Source: Synechococcus sp. HJ21-Hayes
Lineage (GTDB): Bacteria > Cyanobacteriota > Cyanobacteriia > PCC-6307 > Cyanobiaceae
DNA: 64,000 bases
Assembly: GCF_024345835.1 (NCBI RefSeq)
Contig: NZ_JAGQBW010000013.1
Span: 1-64,000 of the forward strand
Direction of reading: 5' to 3'
In this document: piece after piece, positions 29,198 to 34,634 of the stretch
Position numbering within the stretch: the stretch's first letter is position 1
Layout: each line of letters starts with the position of its first letter
Position numbers and translations under genes: made by a program
The notes under the pieces: model-generated
Database searches by the model: none
What the model saw: the letters and a program-made list of their open reading frames with translations, nothing else
Told to the model about the DNA's origin: nothing

Positions 29198-30925
<1,728 letters not shown>

Positions 30926-31789: not shown

Positions 31790-33199
31790 TCATTGCCGCA
31801 GAATCCCGCTGCCGCAGAGCCGCTTGCCCTGATCCAATTTGCGCTGGAGCCGTTGATTCAATCCGAGATCTGCGCCACGCCACAGCCGATCCATCTCCCG
31901 CGTGAAGTGGGCCGCCAGTAGGGGTGAGTCGATCACCAGCAGCACCTCGTCGTTCTGGTGGGCGGCACTGGGGCTCCAGTTGAAGGAGCCCGTGATCACG
32001 GTGCGGTTGTCGATCACCGCCAATTTGTGATGGAGCTTGTCTCCTCCCGCAAGCCGGGGCATGCCCACACCCTCCAGGGGGGTCTGGAGGGGTTTGTTGC
32101 CAGCCTCCAGCAGGCAGTTGCGATCGGGCAAGGAGGCCCCCAGCAGATCCAGTATTTCCGAGAAGGAGCGGCTGGCGAAGCCAGGATCCGCCAGCAATCG
32201 AATCGCGACGCCACGACCATGAAGCTCGGCGATCACGTCCGTGAGGCTCTGGGCGGAGAACACGAACAGGGCCAGATCCACCCGTTGGCGCGCCTCCTCC
32301 AGGGTGCTGGCCAACAGCAGCAGGCCCTGGTTGGGGTCGTCGCGCCGGTGTGGGGCGAACAGCACCTGCACCTGTTGCCCTCCCACCATCACGGCCTGGG
32401 CTCCGCCGGAGGCCTTGGCCTGGCCAAAGCGGCTGTCGGCTTCTCCCCCGGGGCCATCGCCCCACATCCGCGCGAAATCCTCGGCGAACAGCTGCGCTAG
32501 CTCAGCGCTCTCCAGGCGCAGCAGGTGATTCACGTTGCCCCGGGTGCGGGGACTGTCGGGATCGCCGTGGACGCAGGACGGTGTGAAGTTGGTGGAGCCG
32601 GTTACCACCACCTGCCGGTCGGCCACCAGGTATTTCGAGTGCATCAAGCCGCTGCCGGCGCTGCCGTCTGCGGTGTCATCCAGCAGTGGCACGCCAGCCC
32701 GTTGCAGGATCGCGACGGCATCACCCTGGTCCCGCTCGCTGGTGCTGAGCTGGCCATCCCGGTTCCGATCAGCCAGCGCCCTCAACTGATGGTGCCGGTG
32801 GCGCAGGTGCGGGCTGAGCTCGGCTTCGTGTTGCTGGCTCCATGGGGTGCTGTAGGTGTTCTCCAGCACCACCTGCACCCGCACCCCGGAGCGGTGTTTG
32901 GCGGCCAGGGCTTGCGCCACCCTCGGTAGAGAGAGCTCCTGGACCGCCACCAGCAGTTCCTGCTCGGCTCCGGCGATGGCCTCCAGTACCAGGGCTTCGA
33001 GATCGTCGCCACTGCGCCGTTGCCCGCTGATCGGGCTGCGGTAGGCCGCCTCCGCCCGATGGTTGAACGCCACCTTGATGCCCTCGGGCATGGGCAGTTC
33101 GGCGGCCTTCTGGCCCAGCAGCTGGCCTGGAGCGGTGCAGCCCTGCAGAGCGGACAACACCACGGCCAGCGCCAGCGCTTTGTTGCATCGGTGCGCCAT
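31790..33199 (-). CDS. phospholipase D-like lipoprotein with EF-hand loop
   Basis: A 469-residue lipoprotein: lipobox LQGC with Cys21. Two HKD motifs mark a PLD-superfamily hydrolase: H187-x-K189 ... D194 followed by GSTNFT, and H390-x-K392 ... D397 followed by GSFNWS. Between the start of the domain and the first HKD is a canonical EF-hand loop, DRNRDGQLSTSE at 144-155, with Asp, Asn, Asp, Gly, Leu and Glu at the calcium positions. Members of the superfamily cut phosphodiester bonds in lipids or nucleic acids; the substrate is unknown. It is expected on the periplasmic side of a membrane. Confidence 0.88.
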   Translation of the reverse strand: MAHRCNKALALAVVLSALQGCTAPGQLLGQKAAELPMPEGIKVAFNHRAEAAYRSPISGQRRSGDDLEALVLEAIAGAEQELLVAVQELSLPRVAQALAAKHRSGVRVQVVLENTYSTPWSQQHEAELSPHLRHRHHQLRALADRNRDGQLSTSERDQGDAVAILQRAGVPLLDDTADGSAGSGLMHSKYLVADRQVVVTGSTNFTPSCVHGDPDSPRTRGNVNHLLRLESAELAQLFAEDFARMWGDGPGGEADSRFGQAKASGGAQAVMVGGQQVQVLFAPHRRDDPNQGLLLLASTLEEARQRVDLALFVFSAQSLTDVIAELHGRGVAIRLLADPGFASRSFSEILDLLGASLPDRNCLLEAGNKPLQTPLEGVGMPRLAGGDKLHHKLAVIDNRTVITGSFNWSPSAAHQNDEVLLVIDSPLLAAHFTREMDRLWRGADLGLNQRLQRKLDQGKRLCGSGILRQ

Positions 33200-33474: not shown

Positions 33475-34527
33475 TCAGAACCATTCGGCTACAGCCTGCT
33501 CACTGGGGTTGCTGTTGTCTTCTGGTGTGTTGCGATCGAACTGAAGCGTGATGTTGCGCTTCTGTTCTCCGTCAGCGGCCACGGCTTCAATCGCATACAC
33601 CTGTTGGCCATCCCGGAAGGGCACCTGGATGCGGAAGGTGCCGTCGCTGGAGAGGGGCACGTCCTCCCCGCCAATGCTGAGCTTGGCGGAGGGATCGGTG
33701 GCGCCGTAGACGATCAGTTCGGCATCGGCCACCAGCCAGAAGGACCGCTGCCGTGGGGTCACGCCGCCAGCACCCGATTCGTTGCGGCCACTGGCCCAGA
33801 GCCCCACACCCGAAGGGTTCAGGCCAGCGGCTTCAGCCTGCTCGAGCTCGTGGAAGGCTTCCGATCCCCGGCCCAGGCGGCGCCAGCCCATGGTGGCGGT
33901 CTGGTAAAGCCGCTCGTGCAGGCCGTTGTCGCCGGTGGTCATTGGCTCTGCCAGGGGCGTGGGAGCGGGAGGGGTATCCAGAGAGAACGGCACGAACTGA
34001 TCGAGGATCTGTTCGCTGGGGTGCAGGGCAGGAACGCGGGCCACGGAGGAGCTGGCGAGGAAGATCCAGCCGCCACCGGCTTTGCGGTAGCCCAGCTCCA
34101 CGCGGTAGTCGCGATCACTCAGGGGCACCGGGAGGTACCACTCGGTGGCATGGCTATCGACCACCACCTCCTGCAGGGTGTGGGGGTGGCTGCCCCCGTG
34201 GCTGAGGCCGGTCACATCGGCTACGCGCAGGCAGAGCTGGGTGGCTCCGGCTTTGAGGGCCTGTTGGCGATCGCTGTCGGAAATCTCCCAGAACACGTAG
34301 GCCCATTGCGGATCCCGGGGCAGAAACACCACGCGGGTGTCGCCCTCTGGCCTGGTGGGGGCTGGCAGGGTTGATTCCAGGCTGTCCAGGTTGGGCTGGC
34401 GCTTGCTGATGGCGCTCAGCAGTTCTTCCTTGGATTTGCGGCTGTAGAGGCTCACGCCCACGTCACTGGCCACTTGACGCAGTTGACGCAGGGTCATCCG
34501 GGCAAGCGATGACAGGGTCTGGCTCAC
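33475..34527 (-). CDS. DUF4912 protein with N-terminal SAP/Rho-N-like helices
   Basis: A 350-residue protein. The N-terminal 45 residues (MTLRQLRQVASDVGVSLYSRKSKEELLSAI) form a helix-extended-helix resembling SAP/Rho-N domains that bind nucleic acid. A DUF4912 region follows with FLPRDPQWAYVFWEI and YRVELGYRKAGGGWIFLASS, and a C-terminal beta domain (DAELIVYGATDPSAKLSIGGEDV). GTG at 34527 is chosen because GGAGG stands 4 bases upstream; an in-frame ATG at 34620 lacks such a site. DUF4912 proteins have no established function. Confidence 0.8.
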   Translation of the reverse strand: MSQTLSSLARMTLRQLRQVASDVGVSLYSRKSKEELLSAISKRQPNLDSLESTLPAPTRPEGDTRVVFLPRDPQWAYVFWEISDSDRQQALKAGATQLCLRVADVTGLSHGGSHPHTLQEVVVDSHATEWYLPVPLSDRDYRVELGYRKAGGGWIFLASSSVARVPALHPSEQILDQFVPFSLDTPPAPTPLAEPMTTGDNGLHERLYQTATMGWRRLGRGSEAFHELEQAEAAGLNPSGVGLWASGRNESGAGGVTPRQRSFWLVADAELIVYGATDPSAKLSIGGEDVPLSSDGTFRIQVPFRDGQQVYAIEAVAADGEQKRNITLQFDRNTPEDNSNPSEQAVAEWF

Positions 34528-34634
34528 AGTTCCTCCGGATTCCTTTGGGATCAGTCTGACAACTTTCACCGCTTCCCCCTCTTTTTGGAGCCTGCCGTCA
34601 GCATCCCGTGACTGCTGCATCCGCTCTGGGACAT

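Follow-up and report, generated by a model that had tools for sequence, protein, structure and literature searches.

What does a single calcium-binding loop of the EF-hand type do in an envelope protein of the phospholipase D (PLD) superfamily, and on what substrate does such a protein act? The question is raised by a gene in a stretch of 64,000 nucleotides from Synechococcus sp. HJ21-Hayes (contig NZ_JAGQBW010000013.1, positions 1 to 64,000; genome G000), the whole of which is referred to here as the window. Comparison of its orthologues makes it fairly probable that the product is an envelope-anchored HKD phosphodiesterase whose likeliest role is that of the nuclease of natural transformation, combined in many relatives with that of a DNA receptor, and that its EF-hand hairpin is structural.

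The loop DRNRDGQLSTSE is N-terminal to the first HKD motif, HKD1 (H187-K189-D194), and carries D, N, D, G, L and E at positions 1, 3, 5, 6, 8 and 12, with all the canonical EF-hand ligand positions of a 12-residue loop (1, 3, 5 and 12) suitably occupied. Its position, residues and order are exactly those given by a first-pass annotation of this DNA. The strict pattern D-x-[DN]-x-[DN]-G-x-[LIV]-x3-E arises in 0.02% of 20,000 composition shuffles of the window protein and a looser EF-hand pattern in 2%, rates that leave the motif alone suggestive but short of decisive. Conservation among orthologues offers stronger sequence evidence than the pattern itself. Of 233 distinct proteins aligned, 221 are cyanobacterial orthologues; the other 12 rows come from members of the phylum that lie outside the class and that we take to be non-photosynthetic lineages. 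Twelve loci were excluded as too short, and in-frame stops occur in five of the aligned rows (L047, L098, L108, L121 and the outgroup L253). The loop is found in 171 of the 221 orthologues, all of which keep D at position 1, D, N or S at positions 3 and 5, and E at position 12; G6 is kept in 153, and positions 2, 4, 7, 10 and 11 are variable. In these counts, in which the window's own family is heavily over-sampled, 34 of the 35 coded families sampled show the loop, the sole family without it being f36 (six rows). The first-pass annotation had staked its proposal on conservation of the loop, and among most orthologues this is what is found. The invariance of the ligand positions makes binding of Ca2+ by the loop likely.

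Two AlphaFold2 models were built from the same set of 10 sequences with different first sequences: model 1 (mean pLDDT 75.6, pTM 0.79) and model 2, headed by the SynAce01 protein (pTM 0.84). Both display a helix-loop-helix arrangement in which the second helix begins at loop position 10, as it does in the geometry of an EF-hand. The flanking helices that the first-pass annotation had asked for, against the prospect of a buried loop devoid of them, are thus predicted in both models, at low confidence around the loop. The window protein also contains the two HxK(x4)D motifs of the PLD superfamily. The best fold match of the model is the phospholipase D 7e0m (Z 31.0, rmsd 3.0, 324 residues aligned), nearly tied with the PLD3 and PLD4 exonucleases (Z 29.1–30.3), and the fold therefore leaves the choice between lipid and nucleic acid undecided. 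These proteins share with the window protein the fold and the two HKD halves (Z about 29–31), but only 16–18% of residues are identical. Similarity to the nuclease NucT, to DrmC of DISARM and to DpdK is seen at the PLD half-domain, and the window protein scores far below the curated NCBIfam equivalog cut-offs for all three.

The N-terminus consists of a hydrophobic stretch followed by LQGC, whose glutamine at position −2 is unusual for a lipobox. A loose lipobox-like motif is present within the first 70 residues of 134 of the 221 orthologues, and L210, L212, L217 and L224 have no cysteine near the N-terminus. Of the phospholipase-D-like lipoprotein first proposed, the two HKD motifs and the envelope-type character hold; the phospholipase label is doubtful, since fusion to a DNA-binding-type domain and joint decay with ComEC favour a nuclease of DNA uptake.

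The fusion involves HHH_3, a helix-hairpin-helix (HhH) domain that we take to be of the ComEA type. Of 36 genomes searched, 12 have it in one open frame with the PLD match (G203, G214, G221, G224, G228, G235, G248, G261, G281, G287, G313 and G348); they represent 12 of the 28 members of the class that do not belong to the window's family. Among 10 orthologues scanned, a set chosen partly for length, six score above the HHH_3 cut-off; a Vibrio homologue reaches 26.2 bits against a cut-off of 27.

Linkage with ComEC (PF03772) points in the same direction. Across the 201 genomes of the window's family, ComEC and the PLD body are both present in 104, PLD only in 10, ComEC only in seven and neither in 80, and G000 has ComEC. 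Completeness is 73–85% in six of the seven genomes with ComEC only; in the seventh, G071, ComEC is broken and a remnant of the PLD gene is left. Outside the family, ComEC is present in all 21 PLD-bearing genomes tested and absent from five of the nine without PLD. Kinship inflates the co-occurrence, because small genomes lacking both genes make up much of the pattern. The PLD gene is recognisably damaged in nine family genomes: it is reduced to fragments in G025 and a remnant in G071, split in G049, frameshifted in G112 and G115, cut after about residue 414 in G121 and at about 432–446 in G194, and interrupted by in-frame stops in G131 and G174. A partial gene in G087 reflects a contig end, not damage. 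In all of the nine except G194, thus in eight genomes from six genera, ComEC is broken or absent, as against six of the 35 genomes in which the PLD gene is intact and ComEC was checked (Fisher p 1.3e-4, kinship ignored). These 35, the only PLD-intact genomes in which ComEC was fully checked, are not a random sample, some having been picked for a short or stop-containing ComEC; G187 and G111, at or near contig ends, were excluded from them, and ComEC is cut by contig ends in G144, G163, G183 and G192. The HhH fusion, the co-occurrence and the co-decay together argue for a role in DNA uptake. As a separate observation, genus g5 includes five genomes with broken ComEC (G112, G131, G162, G174 and G186) and is the source of all eight loops with threonine at position 8 (L047, L050–L053, L056, L186 and L187).

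Published descriptions, not sequence, indicate that the gene is probably that of Synechocystis ComA, the cyanobacterial ComEA (slr0197). HhH-bearing members of the window protein's family fit the description, whereas the window protein differs from it in having no such domain. According to excerpts of the literature, the slr0197 open reading frame (ORF) spans at least 844 bp (PMC10667661), ComA is membrane-anchored as in Gram-positives (PMC6567925), comA is absent from small-genome Prochlorococcus except MIT9303 and MIT9313 (PMC5101192), and marine picocyanobacterial strains with PilA3 possess ComEA and ComEC (PMC7994388). An ORF of at least 844 bp would be long for a bare HhH protein. A search for HHH_3 in six genomes from the window's family gives no match in five (G000 included) and one below the cut-off in G009, and the picocyanobacterial 'ComEA' may well be an HhH-less protein of the window type. 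The excerpts available on ComA mention neither an EF-hand nor an HKD motif, and literature searches yielded no description of an EF-hand in a cyanobacterial PLD protein. The gene itself, however, is probably a known one. The Anabaena calcium sensor CSE is likewise a cyanobacterial EF-hand protein but, as excerpted, is small, carries two putative EF-hands, is nearly restricted to filamentous cyanobacteria and acts as a sensor, not an enzyme (PMC7065334).

A mechanism can be sketched from these elements. The EF-hand hairpin sits as an insert between a core strand and HKD1. The two HKD halves would combine into one active site, which would cut DNA arriving in the periplasm and pass one strand to ComEC. 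At the high Ca2+ levels outside the cytoplasm the hairpin would hold its ion permanently and, so loaded, would brace the segment leading into HKD1 with no on/off switching.

Several observations weigh against parts of this picture. Model confidence in the loop region is low in model 1 (block means 53–59, with 53–57 at the loop and residues 149–151 below 50) and moderate in model 2 (64–75, with 67–71 at the loop). The loop is dispensable, because 50 of the 221 orthologues are without it. Pfam finds no HhH domain in the window protein, and G000 has no HHH_3 match at E≤0.001. The co-occurrence with ComEC is largely a single clade split. Among the ten PLD-only genomes, four (G044, G070, G133 and G180) have a completeness of 90% or more, and G330, G566, G257 and G275 have ComEC with no PLD match; a divergent orthologue was sought in G330, where only other HKD proteins were found. 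G194 combines a damaged PLD gene, in which both HKD motifs are kept, with an intact ComEC. In six checked genomes (G032, G134, G156, G162, G169 and G186) ComEC is broken beside an intact PLD gene.

Those same six genomes lend some colour to the idea of an envelope phospholipase or phosphatidyltransferase, stabilised by calcium and with no part in DNA uptake, which would also agree with the PLD-family annotation and with 7e0m as best fold match. The PLD3 and PLD4 exonucleases, however, lie within 1–2 Z units of 7e0m, and the HhH fusions of orthologues and the co-decay with ComEC speak against such an enzyme, which we consider improbable. Even less credence is given to the view that the loop is an acidic surface insert without metal, conserved for folding only: its clean absence from some clades and the low AlphaFold2 confidence would suit an insert of this kind, but the invariant positions are precisely the EF-hand ligand positions while their neighbours in the loop vary, and EF-hand Pfam models match seven of 10 other orthologues scanned, if weakly and always below gathering cut-offs (the window protein itself has no Pfam EF-hand match at E≤1).

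A calcium-gated enzyme, the function originally proposed, would be turned on by Ca2+ bound to the hairpin, for example after changes in Ca2+ at the cell surface. The strictly conserved ligand residues and the location of the hairpin immediately before HKD1 are compatible with gating, which is possible in loop-bearing lineages but on the whole unlikely: several clades without the loop retain the HKD residues, H187, K189 and D194 being present in every orthologue; ComEC likewise occurs in most members of g6, g30 and g45, genera that lack the loop; the EF-hand stands alone, with no partner; and extracytoplasmic Ca2+ is usually saturating. Ca2+ is normally abundant outside the cytoplasm, and a single unpaired EF-hand located there is more likely to be structural. 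The extracytoplasmic setting, the lone EF-hand and the retention of both HKD motifs, and mostly of ComEC, in loop-less clades thus favour a structural site, and gating does not emerge from the comparison. The interpretation shifts from a calcium-gated phospholipase to a probable natural-transformation nuclease with a probably structural calcium site.

In the literature as excerpted, the nuclease that renders incoming DNA single-stranded in cyanobacteria has no experimental identification. A widespread EF-hand HKD protein that is mostly lost together with ComEC is a concrete candidate for it. Its part in generating the single strand, and calcium as its structural cofactor, become testable in ordinary laboratory strains, for which clades with a natural 14-residue deletion of the loop serve as a ready control.

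Table 1. Features of the PLD gene, its product and its neighbours in the window
Feature	Position	Strand	Evidence
Two-HKD (PLD superfamily) envelope protein gene, 469 aa + stop	31790..33199	minus	ORF; PLDc_2 in two stretches, E 2.3e-44 (Pfam)
Signal peptide, ending in lipobox-like LQGC (Cys21)	33137..33199	minus	sequence; loose pattern in orthologues
Predicted helix before loop, residues 130–142	32774..32812	minus	AlphaFold2 model 1; equivalent in model 2
EF-hand loop, residues 144–155	32735..32770	minus	sequence, pattern, orthologue alignment
Predicted helices after loop, residues 153–159 and 161–167	32699..32743	minus	AlphaFold2 model 1; equivalents in model 2
HKD1 core (H187, K189, D194)	32618..32641	minus	H, K and D kept in 221/221 orthologues
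HKD2 core (H390, K392, D397)	32009..32032	minus	kept in 219–220/221 orthologues; gaps in the remaining one or two
Gene 3' end from about codon 389, island integration site in relatives; unoccupied in window	31790..32035	minus	relatives' loci
Rho_N + DUF4912 gene, upstream neighbour	33475..34620	minus	domain matches; same domains upstream in G115
Gene presumed phosphoglucomutase-like, far side of integration site	29198..30910	minus	ORF; displaced 3' fragments on its side in G075, G177, G158

The distribution of gene and loop bears on their history. The gene is matched in 264 of 291 class genomes at E≤1e-20 and, within the window's family, in 116 of 201, among which G025 and G071 have fragments only. 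At phylum level 134 of 194 genomes match at E≤1e-10, those outside the class mostly at 26–37% identity with partial coverage. A match is present in 670 plasmid records; query coverage is at least 80% in eight, all from Vibrio among the matches listed, and the loop was checked in one of these eight. Phage records give one partial match. The insert is absent from all 12 rows outside the class, in which the core strand joins the next helix almost directly. The same holds for a Vibrio homologue that is full-length and 33.5% identical over 85% of the query. Given these insert-free sequences, the hairpin is probably an early cyanobacterial gain that was later lost in places. A quick tree, in which many deep forks are weak and from which L222, L224, L229 and L230 were omitted, implies six loop changes among the orthologues and seven with the outside rows, only three of them forced by well-supported branches. 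The loop is missing in two ways: as a clean 14-residue gap that fuses two helices, in genera g6, g23, g24, g30, g45, g47 and g59 of the window's family, or through removal of the whole hairpin, in f36 and in genus g92 of f12. The 14-residue gap has identical borders in two groups that the quick tree places apart, although a single event obscured by a wrong tree, or transfer, is possible. The notion of f36 as a basal lineage with a primitive loop-less state was set aside, as f36 nests inside the tree, weak though its deep forks are. Directly before HKD1, cyanobacterial orthologues also display a conserved stretch of the DDTxDGS type (32660–32680 in the window, residues 174–180), a possible second acidic site; it reads DDTENGS in the Vibrio homologue and is absent from the rows outside the class.

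The 3' end of the gene has a history of its own. C-terminal PLD pieces are found in G004, G025, G075, G098, G101, G115 (four), G158, G177 and, as short pieces, G121, G127 and G156, and one locus, L009, has two. Many begin at about residue 367–373 or 386–397, and some lie on contigs other than that of the gene. A tyrosine integrase adjoins pieces in G115 (twice), G075, G177 and G025 (loci L129 and L130, L135, L137 and L131, respectively), and shortened relatives of the enzyme stand beside pieces in G004 (L134), G098 and L009. Five full-length proteins, a count that takes in the query and one enzyme interrupted by an in-frame stop, are at least 68% identical to the G075 integrase, and each lies beside a PLD piece; other full-length enzymes at 53–56% identity (G126, G134, G141 and G171) have no PLD match alongside. 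G134 holds seven copies or pieces of a related integrase, all away from the PLD gene, which suggests that the group has other targets. The displaced piece of G075 shares 99.1% identity with the 3' end of the intact G123 gene, compared with 75.2% for the present 3' end of G075 and 87.6% for its gene body; for one displaced piece of G115 the identity to the G092 3' end is 99.6%, compared with 92.1% for the present one. Because the displaced pieces match the 3' ends of relatives better than the present ends do, integration must have exchanged the 3' end in both genomes. The similarity of these displaced pieces to the gene begins at the L389-H390-H391-K392 codons, in HKD2. Of the other G115 pieces two start at K392 and one later; for G004, G177 and L009 the start is closer to residue 370. 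G075, G177 and G158 carry pieces on the side towards the presumed phosphoglucomutase-like gene, at a site that is empty in the window. The piece of G194 is explained by an insertion: at about 1670–3346 of L323, an ORF that we take to be transposase-like splits the last PLD codons from the rest of the gene. The idea that the C-terminal fragments are toxin-like cassettes was rejected in view of the integrases alongside and of the two displaced pieces that match relatives' 3' ends.

Integration of mobile elements into competence genes is, in an excerpted account, a theme across many species (PMC4774983), and the islands described here likewise strike a probable competence gene; they differ from those elements in that sequence brought in by the element often restores the 3' end. 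Literature searches returned no description of the PLD gene as an integration target or of its integrase group. A bolder proposal, which is tentative and as a whole rather doubtful, is that a calcium-loaded PLD-fold nuclease runs cyanobacterial transformation, unlike the nucleases of other systems, and that the island integrase is aimed at its HKD2 codons, each integration swapping in an element-borne catalytic half able to silence or retune DNA uptake. Islands entering catalytic codons would exemplify how mobile elements and competence come into conflict in phototrophs of aquatic habitats. Five other ORFs scanned from G115 and G075 include one TPR protein, one acyltransferase-SGNH protein and three without a Pfam match. 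The window's own genome also contains (L140 at 2618–2835, from G000:C36) a degenerate remnant of the part of the PLD gene that encodes HKD1; this remnant adjoins a different tyrosine integrase and an ORF that presumably resembles a terminase small subunit.
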